From: Colwellia sp. RSH04
GTDB taxonomy: Bacteria; Pseudomonadota; Gammaproteobacteria; Enterobacterales; Alteromonadaceae
Assembly (NCBI RefSeq): GCF_003545765.1
Contig: NZ_QXIO01000003.1
Coordinates: 310,001 to 374,000 of the forward strand
Length of the DNA: 64,000 bases
Direction: 5' to 3'
Part shown: in pieces, positions 43,496 to 48,602 of the stretch
Layout: the number at the start of each line of letters is the position of its first letter
Position numbering within the stretch: the stretch's first letter is position 1
Program-made: the position numbers and the translations under genes
Notes under the pieces: generated by a model
Told to the model about the DNA's origin: nothing
The model's input: the letters and a program-made list of their open reading frames with translations, nothing else
The model's database searches: none

Positions 43496-45352
43496 TTATA
43501 GATCTTTAGATTCTGTTAATTTAGCTAAAAAGATATAAGGGTCTATATCTTTAAAATTAGGTGTTTTAATTGCATATTTACTTAAAATAGAAAAGTCACC
43601 AATACTTGCAATAAACCTTACTTGTAAAGCTTCAGATAGTTTATCAACTTTTTGTACAATTTCATCTTCATTTTGATACTCGAATAACAATAGATATTCA
43701 CCTTCATTTAATATACCTGCACAATCATACTCATCAAGGTGCTCAGAAATCACTTTTGCAATATCATTACACACTTCATTAATAATTGATTTTTTATTAA
43801 ACCTAAACGTTAATTCTTGCCAATTATCTATAGTTAAAGACACAACAGTTAGAGGATATTGATATTGCCTTGCTTTTTTATAAAGTAATTGGTAATTGTG
43901 CTTTGTGTGCATAGACTTTAGAAAAAAATTAGCTGGGGTTTCTGCCTCTTGATACACCAAAGAAAGACGCTTAGCCCTAATTCTAAAAAAGAAAAATAAT
44001 AAAAGAGCCAAAAGTAATAAGCTAACCAAAGACAAAATAAAGATGATCGCATTTTGCTTTTTGAATTTAGCATCAAAACTGCTGCTTAATTCACTTTTTT
44101 CAGCCATTTTTATCGTTAATTCTCTAGCTAAATCTAACGGTTCAATTGTTTCTTTTTCATCTTCAGAAATAACAGAAGAAAAATAACTTGGTATCAAATC
44201 TAGCCTTTTTTGTTGTTTATTCTTGTTTTGAAGCGCTTGACTATATTTTTCTTGCCATAAGAAGGCTTTTTGATATTCCTGCTTGTTGAAATGCATTTGG
44301 CTAACCATGTTATAAAAGCTCAAAACATCTATATTCATTTCACTTTCAACGATTAACGTCTGTATCTCATTTAACAGGATATAAGAATGCTCAAACTCCT
44401 TTCTTTTTAATTTAATTTCAGCAATGTAAATAGCGGTCTCAACATAAGGTAATATCATGTTTCTTTTTTTATAAATGTCATTCGCGCTCGACAGCTCTAA
44501 TAAGGCATTGTCTAAATCATTTTGTTTATAATAAACAATACCAATTCCTTGCTGTGCGTTAGCGACATTTATATCAGCACTCTTCTTCTGAGCATATTTT
44601 TTGGCCTCCCAATAACTGTTGTAAGCGTCATCAAATCGTCTTAAGGCTAAATAGGCATGCGCCATTTGGATATATGTTTGATCTAAATTAGCCAATCGAG
44701 ATAATTCAAACCTTAGCGTCAAAACTTTATTATGAATGGTAAGAGCGGTTTGATAATCGCCTAATGCTTGGTAAGCTTTCGCTAAAATAGTTAACAATTC
44801 AATGTGTTCAGAAAAAACTTTATTTGATGAAATGCTTAACTCTACTTGTTCTAAATCCATTAACGTTTTTTGATGTTTGCCTAGCATTGCAAACGCTACG
44901 CTACGATAACCTAAAGCAAAGAGTTTATATTTAACATTGTTGGTCATTTCACTCTGAACTACTGCTTGCTCAGCAGCAGAGAGTAGTAATGAGAACTGCT
45001 TTTTAGTCACATAAATTTCTGCTAACTTTAATGTTAGACATAATCTTATTTTTTTATGAGAAGTGTTTACAGCAAGACCATCCAAAGTAAACTGGTACGC
45101 TTTATCAATATCCCCCTTATTCGTCGCAACATCTGCTAATAACAGAAATAATTTTGCAATAACATCACTTGGATACTCGTGTTTGTTTGGGATTATTTTT
45201 TTTGAAAGTGAGGTGATTTGTTCCGCTTTGAGATCTTCTTTATCTTTGGCCAAATATAAAGCAACCTGATCAATTAATAGCATTTGTTCATTTACTTTAT
45301 CTTGCGCAGCAAAAACCGATGAACTCAACAAGAAAGTGAGCAAAACCTTCAT
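43496..45352 (-). CDS. Exported TPR protein with membrane helix and degenerate GGDEF-like domain
   Basis: The protein has a signal peptide (MKVLLTFLLSSSVFA, cut before AQDK), a periplasmic array of tetratricopeptide repeats (about residues 40-385), a membrane helix near 430-450 and a cytoplasmic GGDEF-like domain (about 475-615). The GGDEF position reads LNEGEYL and the substrate-binding motif DxLTGLxNR is not recognisable, so diguanylate cyclase activity is unlikely. The ATG at 45352 is taken; a GTG at 45382, preceded by GGGA, is a real alternative that adds ten residues. It is divergent from the c-di-GMP riboswitch transcript and forms an operon with the 188-residue gene. Confidence 0.83.
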   Translation of the reverse strand: MKVLLTFLLSSSVFAAQDKVNEQMLLIDQVALYLAKDKEDLKAEQITSLSKKIIPNKHEYPSDVIAKLFLLLADVATNKGDIDKAYQFTLDGLAVNTSHKKIRLCLTLKLAEIYVTKKQFSLLLSAAEQAVVQSEMTNNVKYKLFALGYRSVAFAMLGKHQKTLMDLEQVELSISSNKVFSEHIELLTILAKAYQALGDYQTALTIHNKVLTLRFELSRLANLDQTYIQMAHAYLALRRFDDAYNSYWEAKKYAQKKSADINVANAQQGIGIVYYKQNDLDNALLELSSANDIYKKRNMILPYVETAIYIAEIKLKRKEFEHSYILLNEIQTLIVESEMNIDVLSFYNMVSQMHFNKQEYQKAFLWQEKYSQALQNKNKQQKRLDLIPSYFSSVISEDEKETIEPLDLARELTIKMAEKSELSSSFDAKFKKQNAIIFILSLVSLLLLALLLFFFFRIRAKRLSLVYQEAETPANFFLKSMHTKHNYQLLYKKARQYQYPLTVVSLTIDNWQELTFRFNKKSIINEVCNDIAKVISEHLDEYDCAGILNEGEYLLLFEYQNEDEIVQKVDKLSEALQVRFIASIGDFSILSKYAIKTPNFKDIDPYIFLAKLTESKDL

Positions 45353-45478
45353 TAAAACAATCTTTTTTCTCAAAAAAACCACCAAATCCCTATATTTTTA
45401 ACAACAATAAAAACAATAACTTAACCTTTTTGTTCACGACAAATTAACAACATTAACTTTGTGTAAACCTTCGTGGTG

Positions 45479-45506
45479 TTTACATCGAGAATACTTATTC
45501 TATAAT
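45479..45506 (+). promoter_or_regulatory. Sigma-70 promoter for the c-di-GMP riboswitch RNA
   Basis: TTTACA at 45479-45484 and a perfect TATAAT at 45501-45506 are separated by 16 bases. The predicted start, near 45513, is a few bases before the aptamer's P1 stem. This is one of the best promoter matches in the window and faces away from the TPR gene. Confidence 0.77.
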
Positions 45507-45516
45507 GAGGGTGAGT

Positions 45517-45610
45517 TCTAATACTCGACAAGGGCAAACCTAGTGAAAACTAGAGACGCAAAGTTACCGGTCTAATGGGAAACCTATGATAGCGGGACTG
45601 CCAGATTAGA
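45517..45610 (+). ncRNA. Cyclic di-GMP-I (GEMM-I) riboswitch aptamer, orphan
   Basis: The 94-base aptamer has the class hallmarks. P1 is a perfect 6-bp stem, TCTAAT (45517-45522) with ATTAGA (45605-45610). AGGGCAAACC is at 45531-45540. CTAGT-GAAA-ACTAG (45540-45553) is the P2 hairpin with its GNRA tetraloop, followed by GACGCAAAG (45555-45563) and CCGGTCTAA (45567-45575). A short hairpin with an AAA loop, AGCGGG (45591-45596) and TGCC complete P3. c-di-GMP binds such RNAs between the two main helices. No plus-strand gene starts behind it; 75 bases later its transcript enters the 3' end of the DUF885 gene antisense. No terminator-type expression platform is evident. Confidence 0.93.
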
Positions 45611-45684
45611 TATAGTGGGGGCTTATCTTATTTAGCAGCTTCTATTGAAAGTTTCTTCCGATATCTTTGCGTGCCTTCCTCTTG

Positions 45685-47463
45685 TTATTCTTTCTGCTCC
45701 ATTGATGATTCCTTGTGATCAATGTATTCCTTAATGACTTTTTCAAGCATTGATAACGGCATAGAACCATTCTTTAATATTTCATCATGAAACTCTCGTA
45801 CATCAAAATGTTCACCCAAAGCCTTTTCCGCATCTTTGCGTAAGCGCTTAATCGTTAGCTCCCCAATTTTGTAAGATAATGCCTGACCTGGCCATGAGAT
45901 GTATCGATCAATTTCAGTCTTGACATTATGTAATGACAAAGCCGTATTGTCCGCTAAGAAATCCATCGCTTTTTGGCGGCTCCACCCTTGAGTGTGCATG
46001 CCCGTATCAACCACTAACCTGCAGGCTCTCCACATTTCATAAGTTAACCGACCAAAATCATGATAGGGGTTTTCATACATCCCAGCTTCAATACCCAAAT
46101 ATTCAGAATATAACCCCCACCCCTCACCAAAAGCAGAAATATAAGTACGATTTCTAAACTTTGGTACATCTTTCATTTCTTTTGCTAATGCGATTTGCAA
46201 ATGATGTCCAGGTACCGCTTCATGTAATGTTAACGCTGTAAGTACGTATAGTGGCCTTCTATCTAGTCGATAGGTATTTACCCAGTAATTCCCTGGTTGA
46301 TCATCTCTAGAGGGGCCAGAGTAACGACCTGTTGTGTACTTAGGTGCTATATTCGCTGGCACGGGTATAACACCATATGGCGTTCTAGGTAAGGTTTTAA
46401 ATAATGCAGGTAACTTTGCATCCATTTGCTTAGCAATATATGAAGCTTCCTTAATCAATCCTTCAGGTGTTTTTGCGTAAAACTGAGAGTCGGTTCGTAA
46501 GAAGGTCACAAATTCTTTGAAGCTACCATCAAACTCAACCGCCTTGATAATATCATTCATCTCAGCTTTTATACGTTTAACTTCCAACAAACCTTTTTGA
46601 TGCACTTCTGCTGCAGTTAAAGGTAACGTGGTGTAGTGCTCTACTCTATTTTGATAATAAATTTCACCATTAGGCAGGCTTGCAGCAGCAATATTTTCTC
46701 GAGCCTTTACTTGGTATGTATCCACCATAAAGTCATAAAAGTCTTGATATGCTGGCATTACCTTATTCACTAATACTTGTTTAGCTTCTTCTGTTAGCTT
46801 CTTTTTTTGCTCAGATGAAACCTGATTCGACATATTTTTAAAGGGTTTGTAATAACCACTGTCTTCAACGTTTTCCTTAATATAAGCTGCTATTGACTCT
46901 TCAAACCCCTTTAATACTACTTTAGGTTGAGTAATACCCACTTGAATTCCCTTTTCCATCCAACGAGTTTGCTGCTGAAAATAATGAGGGATCGCTTTCA
47001 ACCTCGAAATATAATCTTGATAATCTTGTACCGATTTAAAATTTACTCGACTTGCAATATTTGCTATCCAAACATGAAAACCCGATTCAGCCGTTAACGG
47101 CATGTAGTGTTCTTTGTTAATGTAACTGTCAAGTTGGTTTTTTAAACTGTATGTTAAAACTGACCAGTTAATTTGATTTTCTTTACTGAGTTTATTTTTA
47201 TCTAAGGCATTTAACGCTTGAAAAATTGTCAGTCTTTGCTGATGCAGGTTTTCTAAATTTTCAGCCGATAAATCAGGTAATTTGGCGTTATTATCACCAG
47301 CTAAAGGTTTATTAAAAGGGCTACTTTGTTGATAGAAAACTTCATGTTGTTCAATAATTTTTGCCAACTGCTCATTAGCATCCTTTTTTGTACTTTTATC
47401 TAAAGTTGAAACTGAACAAGAGACCAGAAAGAAGCACAGTATGAAGGTATAAATTTTTTTCAT
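45685..47463 (-). CDS. DUF885 family lipoprotein, putative zinc peptidase
   Basis: The 592-residue protein starts with a lipoprotein signal peptide whose lipobox is LVSC at about residues 13-16. The body is a DUF885 domain with LHEAVPGHH near residue 412, an HExxxGHH-type metal site, a downstream Glu in FGEGWGLYSE near residue 446, and other gluzincin-like features. Such proteins are exported metallo-hydrolases or peptidases of marine bacteria with unknown substrates. Its 3' end lies opposite the c-di-GMP riboswitch transcript. Start ATG at 47463 begins directly at the signal peptide. Confidence 0.87.
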   Translation of the reverse strand: MKKIYTFILCFFLVSCSVSTLDKSTKKDANEQLAKIIEQHEVFYQQSSPFNKPLAGDNNAKLPDLSAENLENLHQQRLTIFQALNALDKNKLSKENQINWSVLTYSLKNQLDSYINKEHYMPLTAESGFHVWIANIASRVNFKSVQDYQDYISRLKAIPHYFQQQTRWMEKGIQVGITQPKVVLKGFEESIAAYIKENVEDSGYYKPFKNMSNQVSSEQKKKLTEEAKQVLVNKVMPAYQDFYDFMVDTYQVKARENIAAASLPNGEIYYQNRVEHYTTLPLTAAEVHQKGLLEVKRIKAEMNDIIKAVEFDGSFKEFVTFLRTDSQFYAKTPEGLIKEASYIAKQMDAKLPALFKTLPRTPYGVIPVPANIAPKYTTGRYSGPSRDDQPGNYWVNTYRLDRRPLYVLTALTLHEAVPGHHLQIALAKEMKDVPKFRNRTYISAFGEGWGLYSEYLGIEAGMYENPYHDFGRLTYEMWRACRLVVDTGMHTQGWSRQKAMDFLADNTALSLHNVKTEIDRYISWPGQALSYKIGELTIKRLRKDAEKALGEHFDVREFHDEILKNGSMPLSMLEKVIKEYIDHKESSMEQKE

Positions 47464-47633: not shown

Positions 47634-48602
47634 ATGAAGTATCACGACTCTATACATGAAGCAGAGCAAATCATGGCTCGCACCATAGAACAACTTAACC
47701 AATGGGGGTTACCTGTTAACCCTATCAATTATGCTGTTGGTTATGAGTACAGTAAACAAAATACCCCTAAGCTAAGTAAGTGTATCAATGACCAATTACT
47801 TATCTCCAGTAGTCTCAATGGCTTTTTTATGGAATCTCTTTATAAAAGTCATGTACTTGAGCAAAGTAAGTTCCGCTTTGATATTATCTCAGACTTACAT
47901 AAGCTACTCAGTACAACGCAAAAGAATTCACAGCAAAGCAGTCATTCTGCAGACAAGCTTATCTCAGACTTTGATACCAGTATTCCACAACTACTTTCCC
48001 AAGATAAAGCAGAAGTTATTCAAGCTGTCGAGGCGTTAGAAGCGGCAACACAAGCTTTTAAAAAACAACAAGAGCAACTTAATAAGCAATTACAAATAGC
48101 TCAAAGAGTGAATCAAAAACTTAATGATGAATTAACCATTGCAAAGCAGAGTGTCGATTTAGATCCTGTTACCGGTTTATTTAATAAAGAAGCCATTATT
48201 AGACATATTAACGCTTGGCTAAAACAAGACAGTCAACCTGTCATGATTGCAATACTCGTTAAGGTCAATGATTTTGAGAAATTTTCTCAAGAATATGGCT
48301 TACTATTATCTGATGTCATTTTAAATAAAGTAGCAAATAAGGTGGCTAGCTATGTTGATGAAAGTGGCTTATCTTCACGCATTAGCTTTGATGAATTTCT
48401 CTTATTCGTCCCAAAAATCAGCATAGATACAGCGAATGAAATCAGTAAAAAAATATCACTTGGCGTAGAAAAGCTCAGATTTGTAAGTGCTAAATCAAAG
48501 GTGACTTTACCTCAAATCACCATTGATTATGCTATTGATAATATTAGTTTAAGTGAGTCGCTATCTGTGATTACAACTCATCTTAGAAATAAACTACCTT
48601 AG
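47634..48602 (+). CDS. Soluble GGDEF-like signalling protein, degenerate active site
   Basis: The 322-residue cytoplasmic protein has an N-terminal helical region (about 1-125), a coiled coil (about 125-175) and a C-terminal GGDEF domain (about 178-315). The DxLTGLxNR-like motif is present (DPVTGLFNKEA), but the active-site loop reads SFDEF in place of GGDEF, so cyclase activity is doubtful. The N-terminal half resembles other GGDEF proteins of Alteromonadales I recall as diguanylate cyclase. It is the first plus-strand gene downstream of the c-di-GMP riboswitch, but 2.0 kb away. It converges with orn, ending 8 bases before it. Confidence 0.83.
   Translation: MKYHDSIHEAEQIMARTIEQLNQWGLPVNPINYAVGYEYSKQNTPKLSKCINDQLLISSSLNGFFMESLYKSHVLEQSKFRFDIISDLHKLLSTTQKNSQQSSHSADKLISDFDTSIPQLLSQDKAEVIQAVEALEAATQAFKKQQEQLNKQLQIAQRVNQKLNDELTIAKQSVDLDPVTGLFNKEAIIRHINAWLKQDSQPVMIAILVKVNDFEKFSQEYGLLLSDVILNKVANKVASYVDESGLSSRISFDEFLLFVPKISIDTANEISKKISLGVEKLRFVSAKSKVTLPQITIDYAIDNISLSESLSVITTHLRNKLP

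Follow-up and report, generated by a model that had tools for sequence, protein, structure and literature searches.

The window, by which we mean the whole 64,000-nucleotide stretch of Colwellia sp. RSH04 DNA analysed here, carries a complete c-di-GMP-I aptamer on the plus strand (45523-45605) between two genes on the minus strand. The divergent neighbour (43496..45385) encodes a TPR protein with a signal peptide (by inspection), for which Pfam gives only TPR families and leaves the GGDEF-like C-terminal end unrecognised, and the convergent neighbour (45685..47463) encodes a DUF885 protein (PF05960, 575 bits), the gene ending at 45685, 80 nt past the aptamer. The first plus-strand gene downstream encodes a GGDEF protein (47634..48602; PF00990, 57 bits) and is at the same time the first plus-strand ORF of more than 75 aa, beginning 2,029 nt past the aptamer; a plus-strand ORF of 74 aa at 45933-46157 lies antisense within the DUF885 gene. 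c-di-GMP riboswitches have been described mostly as cis elements, located in the 5' leader of a co-directional gene, and the window lacks this layout, with no plus-strand ORF above 75 aa for 2.0 kb.

Across the whole window, RF01051 was the sole Rfam match at the gathering score (35 bits), and the aptamer matched it with 75.2 bits (E 6e-13) over model positions 1-87. The P2 helix has a GAAA loop and, at its base, one non-standard pair (C-A), and the conserved core agrees with RF01051. The ligand-specificity position, which we take to be G20 in the usual numbering, is a G, with GG or AG ahead of GCAA in 90 of the 91 standalone RNAs that we compared, the window's included (36 loci of the genus and 55 of other genera). 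Upstream lies a predicted promoter (45479..45506, plus strand) composed of TTTACA (45479-45484), a 16-nt spacer and TATAAT (45501-45506), matching 11 of 12 consensus letters. The promoter claim rests on conservation, because the total of the promoter scan was no better than in shuffles (8 sites versus a mean of 12.8, i.e. no excess): TTTACA-N15-18-TATAAT occurs without mismatch in 79/91 relatives (window counted) versus 7/910 random placements in the same loci, and with at most one mismatch in 89/91, while L209 is without the promoter. As the -10 box ends at 45506, the RNA is predicted to start near 45513, at a 5' terminal hairpin (GAGU-UCUAAU-ACUC, 45513..45526, plus strand) whose stem takes the forms GAGC/GCUC, AAGC/GCUU and GAGU/ACUC among the relatives. 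An initial annotation made from the sequence had proposed a complete GEMM-I aptamer with a P2 GNRA loop and intact binding-core bases, behind a strong promoter and with no plus-strand gene start for about 2.0 kb, and on all of these points it proved right; of the divergent gene, which it called TPR/GGDEF-like, the TPR part stands and the GGDEF-like part was not recovered by Pfam.

That description of the locus was accurate and missed a conserved 3' domain of ~80 nt (about 45606-45690), a Rfam search of which gave no match. The composite element, encoding a predicted RNA of ~175 nt, consists in this order of promoter, 5' hairpin, aptamer and 3' domain. The 3' domain contains a conserved hairpin (45608..45628, plus strand) bearing the near-invariant AGUGGGGGCU (45614-45623), which is present in 89/91 relatives and is flanked by stems in compensatory forms (AGAUA/UAUCU, AGACA/UGUCU, AAGGUA/UACCUU and AAAUG/CAUUU). 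Among 48 distinct rows, 95.8% of the stem cells are paired versus a shuffle mean of 92.6%, a value reached by 0/1000 shuffles, and the two-sided changes were equalled by 0/1000 and the number of pair types by 6/1000, in shuffles that ignore relatedness and on a stem that was itself chosen from one of the rows. Judged by the loop rule that we take to apply to ANTAR targets, the element does not have the dual hairpins of that type, being a single hairpin with the loop UGGGGG. A conserved peptide read from GTG GGG GCT was considered and rejected: in many relatives a stop closes the frame after a few codons, and the third codon positions are invariant, as judged by inspection only; in some relatives, such as L015 and L029, the frame stays open.

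The hairpin is followed by an anti-aptamer segment (45658..45672, plus strand) ending in CUUUGCGU (45665-45672), which is complementary to ACGCAAAG at 45556-45563 in the aptamer, and then by a C-rich, G-poor pyrimidine tail (45673..45690, plus strand) where sequence conservation ends. The same order is found after the aptamer in the 36 loci of the genus, namely TTTAGATRTAGTGGGGGCT or a sequence near it, CTTTGCGTG in most, the pyrimidine tail and then an end of similarity. No canonical intrinsic terminator was found on the plus strand between 44800 and 48600, and T runs of at least five occur within 33 nt past the core in 23/91 loci. The 50 nt past the core have a C/G ratio of 3.1, versus 1.2 at +60 to +110 behind 24 other copies of the aptamer. 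The C-rich, G-poor composition of the tail would fit a resemblance to Rho sites, and either Rho or a processing step just past the tail may generate the 3' end of the RNA.

Of the 37 congeners that were sampled (the genome of the window among them), 36 have an RF01051 match. The 3' domain is present in all 35 loci of the genus that were recognised by their TPR and/or DUF885 flanks, read in the orientation of the aptamer, and also in L053, which is without these flanks. A model built from the 3' domain only (R1) matched 63 of 196 genomes of the family, in 18 of 52 genera and with one match per genome, and gave no match in the remaining 133. An aptamer lies directly upstream of the 3' domain in 34/34 of the Rfam-scanned loci among the 55 that were fetched, all 17 other genera being covered and one of the 34 aptamers being a GGC variant; the 3' domain itself is present in 55 of the 91 loci by selection, because these were found through the 3'-domain model. 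In an order-wide search, 10/394 genomes matched, all in the same family. A DNA pattern run over 84,980 species yielded 105 stretches, 60 of which match a second model (R2) at E <=1.4e-17, whereas the other 45 gave 8 weak R2 matches (E 0.0003 to 0.005) and otherwise none. The names borne by the 60 include Colwellia, Cognaticolwellia, Litorilituus and Thalassotalea, along with Alteromonadaceae or Gammaproteobacteria MAGs and a single 'Endozoicomonas sp. G2_1'. By sequence comparison, all five elements, from the promoter and the 5' hairpin through the aptamer to the G-loop hairpin and the anti-aptamer segment, are conserved jointly across 18 genera, whatever their neighbours.

Other c-di-GMP-I copies served as a contrast. 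In the 29 that were fetched out of a longer list (24 of the genus and 5 of other families), GTGGGGGCT was found within 400 nt in none. All 24 other genus copies have an ORF of at least 119 aa on the same strand starting within 310 nt, as do 2 of the 63 standalone loci that have DUF885 and 22 of the 28 that lack it, the window reaching 30 aa, and these other genus copies look like ordinary riboswitches. The genome of the window has a second copy of its own (L002, also L058; G000:C70:150702-150811, minus strand), which by inspection looks canonical, with a terminator-like hairpin and a co-directional gene for a secreted-looking protein of 119 aa (MKKLLIAST...); the arrangement is alike in several congeners. 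Nine of the 24 genus copies (L034, L035, L045, L049, L052, L054, L061, L066 and L068) have A for G at what we presume, from the same numbering, to be the ligand-specificity site, and may therefore sense cGAMP or have an altered specificity; these nine precede ORFs of 292 to 1276 aa.

The pairing between the two halves of the RNA is widely retained. CUUUGCGU can form 8/8 pairs with ACGCAAAG in 68 of the 91 loci, 7 in 16 and 6 in 7, with three rows scored at a later site and with L212 entered as a miss because of a wrong register, as also in the tallies of tail pairing and helix probability; in L251 and L252 the smaller match is offset by extension in the other direction (by inspection). The predicted probability of the anti-aptamer helix exceeds 0.9 in 88/91 loci. 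This helix cannot itself covary, because its aptamer side hardly varies. In the alignment of the 36 genus loci, two-sided changes occur in 8 of 35 consensus pairs, such as GAUAG/CUAUC versus GACAG/CUGUC, linked changes of this kind possibly being one event. The 3' domain together with the aptamer is more stable than its own shuffles, with a mean z of -2.76, 69/91 loci below -2 and the window at -2.33, versus a mean z of -0.87 and 4/29 below -2 for the other c-di-GMP-I copies.

For the window RNA, a rod in which the two halves pair is predicted at -53.9 kcal/mol and the aptamer fold at -36.7 kcal/mol, two mutually exclusive states whose energies ignore tertiary contacts and ligand. In the 76 loci with standard aptamer length, enforcing the aptamer costs a mean of 13.5 kcal/mol (range 5.7 to 26.6), the energies of ligand binding and tertiary contacts not being counted, and in these 76/91 loci the unpaired fraction of GGGGG falls from 0.77 in the free RNA to 0.24 with the aptamer enforced. 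The folding model suggests a switch in which the loop would be shown without c-di-GMP and hidden with it. Pairing of the tail with GGGGG in the ligand state reached a mean probability of just 0.17 and was dropped from the model. The tail and the 5' strand of the aptamer pair at a mean of -7.9 kcal/mol, versus -6.9 kcal/mol with partners from other genera, the own tail having the advantage in 10 of 18 genera and the genus of the window not being among them, so that these predicted energies are suggestive at best of pairing between tail and 5' strand. One relative, L064 (G011), has lost the specificity G, has a changed aptamer core and has partly lost the anti-aptamer match, with the AGUGGGGGCU hairpin intact; this RNA may have lost c-di-GMP control and retained the role of the hairpin.

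Across the 91 loci (INDEPENDENCE), the TPR gene adjoins the RNA in 82 and the DUF885 gene in 63, and of the 69 loci whose sequence extends far enough to judge, 54 have a GGDEF gene at a distance of no more than 3.2 kb. Seven loci have DUF885 only, one has none of the three neighbours, and five have TPR and DUF885 with no GGDEF match, the available flank being only 2.9 kb in four of them and 5 kb in L226. DUF885 is missing from 28/91 loci, with at least nine changes of state on an unrooted TPR-protein tree (82 rows, built by a quick method, g76 left out). The RNA is about equally conserved in both groups: the exact promoter, the loop, CTTTGC and the specificity G are found in 54, 62, 61 and 62 loci with DUF885 (n=63) and in 25, 27, 27 and 28 loci without it (n=28). 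Since this conservation holds with and without each neighbour, no single neighbour explains it, and we attribute it to a function of the RNA itself. A stand-alone RNA was one of several options named in the initial annotation, which also took the aptamer to be still under constraint; the retention of RNA and promoter across 18 genera, whatever the neighbours, favours the first and bears out the second. In the DUF885-less loci the RNA may have a cis role, because there a GGDEF gene often lies directly downstream (25/91 loci, same strand, 139-448 nt past the anti-aptamer segment), and where it does, the RNA may act on that gene in cis. DUF885 is scattered over the loci and occurs in the divergent g76 group too, a distribution which suggests that the arrangement with DUF885 in between came first.

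These 25 loci, together with the ORFs of at least 119 aa, mostly GGDEF, that start within 310 nt in 22 of the 28 DUF885-less loci as they would behind a cis leader, are what speaks for regarding the RNA as the leader of the downstream GGDEF gene, through which c-di-GMP would feed back in cis on a diguanylate cyclase, DUF885 sometimes having been inserted between the two. Such feedback is biologically sensible, and the initial annotation had set a co-directional gene in related genomes against its view of an orphan aptamer; relatives do have one in the 25 GGDEF loci where DUF885 is missing, but among the loci with DUF885 a close ORF is found in 2 of 63. We nevertheless consider a GGDEF leader unlikely: the RNA is kept where no GGDEF match is found (over about 5 kb of downstream sequence in L226 and the seven g76 loci, and over 3.9-4.9 kb in L053, L055 and L056), a gene of about 1.8 kb on the opposite strand separates RNA and GGDEF gene in 29 loci, the intervening DUF885 is suggested to be the older state (on scattered presence, g76 included, and an unrooted tree), and a cis leader does not explain the near-invariant loop sequence. 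Antisense action on DUF885, in which the RNA would read into the 3' end of that gene and c-di-GMP would control read-through and hence DUF885 expression, is quite unlikely as well. The convergent gene is there in 63/91 loci, its distance from the aptamer in the window is well inside the 500-nt criterion for antisense-acting riboswitches, and genome scans have led to the proposal of many antisense-acting c-di-GMP riboswitches, with a Colwellia gene as one example target (PMC9943018). Conservation of the RNA, however, stops at the tail, and the loss of DUF885 from 28/91 loci, in at least nine changes, leaves the RNA about equally conserved, so that the antisense control of DUF885 raised in the initial annotation does not hold up as the selected function.

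A reservoir or sponge for c-di-GMP, as proposed for the merRNA of Bdellovibrio, would fit a stand-alone aptamer RNA behind a near-consensus promoter, and merRNA provides the precedent (PMC3627812); since a sponge requires the aptamer alone, this role would not account for the conserved G-loop hairpin or for the anti-aptamer segment, and we regard it as very unlikely. That the RNA is the relic of a canonical riboswitch, left over after loss of its target gene as the initial annotation also entertained, might be read from the 2 kb of the window without a co-directional gene and from the one degenerate relative, L064, but is scarcely credible for an element whose promoter, aptamer and 3' domain have been retained across 18 genera.

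The reading that we favour, and hold to be probable, is that of a single-copy, independently transcribed noncoding RNA of ~175 nt with a c-di-GMP-I aptamer as its 5' half and a dedicated effector domain as its 3' half, acting in trans and gated by c-di-GMP. The RNA would be transcribed and bind c-di-GMP. In the modelled absence of ligand, the 3' half would pair with the aptamer core to give one long rod with the G-rich loop exposed at its tip, whereas binding of c-di-GMP during transcription would lock the aptamer, free the 3' half and leave the G-rich stretch paired. The G-loop hairpin would then be the working end, binding a protein or an RNA in trans, and c-di-GMP would set the activity of the RNA, which in the model is active at low c-di-GMP. 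More tentatively, and with somewhat less than even confidence, we propose that this is the first c-di-GMP-gated trans RNA, with a near-invariant G-loop hairpin that captures a protein or RNA partner unless c-di-GMP folds the hairpin away, and that it forms a conserved family in Colwellia, Litorilituus, Cognaticolwellia, Thalassotalea and kin. If so, c-di-GMP signalling would gain a trans branch, in the form of a conserved stand-alone c-di-GMP RNA equipped with an effector hairpin of its own.

Exact complements of the loop occur in the RNA's own genome at 5 sites for AAGCCCCCAC versus 0 for the reversed sequence, and at 31 sites for AGCCCCCAY versus 6 reversed (RNA locus included). We inspected 30 of these 31 sites, which represent exact complements only, against ORFs of at least 60 aa. 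Besides the RNA itself, 23 of 29 sites overlap an antisense ORF (many at ATG GGG GCT, by inspection), one of them being followed by a doubtful 61-aa sense ORF, and four lie inside a sense ORF only. Of the remaining two, one (L280) lies between genes and the other lies 44 nt ahead of a gene that we take to be grpE, where it resembles what is presumably the -10 element of a heat-shock promoter. We attribute the excess of sites to codon and promoter bias and put forward no antisense target in trans; the lack of a convincing target by exact pairing points rather to a protein partner or to short, imperfect pairing.

Searches of the literature by title or opening abstract found no paper on this standalone RNA, and a term search in the main text of two surveys of new bacterial RNAs returned no Colwellia or Thalassotalea. 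Compared with the c-di-GMP-I riboswitches of RF01051, the RNA shares the complete aptamer, the core, the P2 GAAA loop and, in 90/91, the specificity G, but in the window it lacks a co-directional gene for 2 kb and has a conserved 3' domain without Rfam match. Antisense-acting c-di-GMP riboswitches, put forward on the basis of genome scans and with a Colwellia sp. PAMC 21821 gene cited among their uncharacterised targets, likewise place a riboswitch near the 3' end of a convergent gene, as far as their description goes (PMC9943018); here, in contrast, the RNA is conserved whether or not the convergent DUF885 gene is present, and if our reading is true, some of the predicted 'antisense-acting' c-di-GMP riboswitches may be independent RNA genes. 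The merRNA of Bdellovibrio bacteriovorus is described as a stand-alone noncoding c-di-GMP riboswitch RNA of 445 nt and a proposed reservoir, which its authors state is not conserved outside the Bdellovibrio lineage (PMC3627812). In the terms of that account, both are noncoding RNAs that contain a c-di-GMP riboswitch and lack a conserved ORF downstream (PMC3627812), such an ORF being absent directly downstream in the window and in most DUF885 loci and present in the 25 GGDEF-adjacent loci; unlike merRNA, the present RNA has about 175 nt, belongs to another bacterial group and has a conserved hairpin and anti-aptamer segment. Massive expression is a further mark of the merRNA type, to which the near-consensus promoter is what the present locus offers in comparison. 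If the reading holds, the question that merRNA raises, sponge or regulator, becomes testable in a culturable group. EutX/Rli55, which has an AdoCbl riboswitch, illustrates how a sequestering sRNA can be placed under riboswitch control (PMC5821096). The logic is alike, a constitutive promoter (here predicted) being followed by an aptamer and then a hairpin element, and the orientation of EutX/Rli55 is described as free because it acts in trans (PMC5821096). The present RNA differs in its predicted ligand, c-di-GMP, in having one G-loop hairpin instead of a dual hairpin, and in that the ligand, in our model, would refold the RNA rather than shorten it (PMC5821096). By analogy, the best reading is of an RNA that would share its logic with EutX/Rli55 and its layout with the merRNA of Bdellovibrio.
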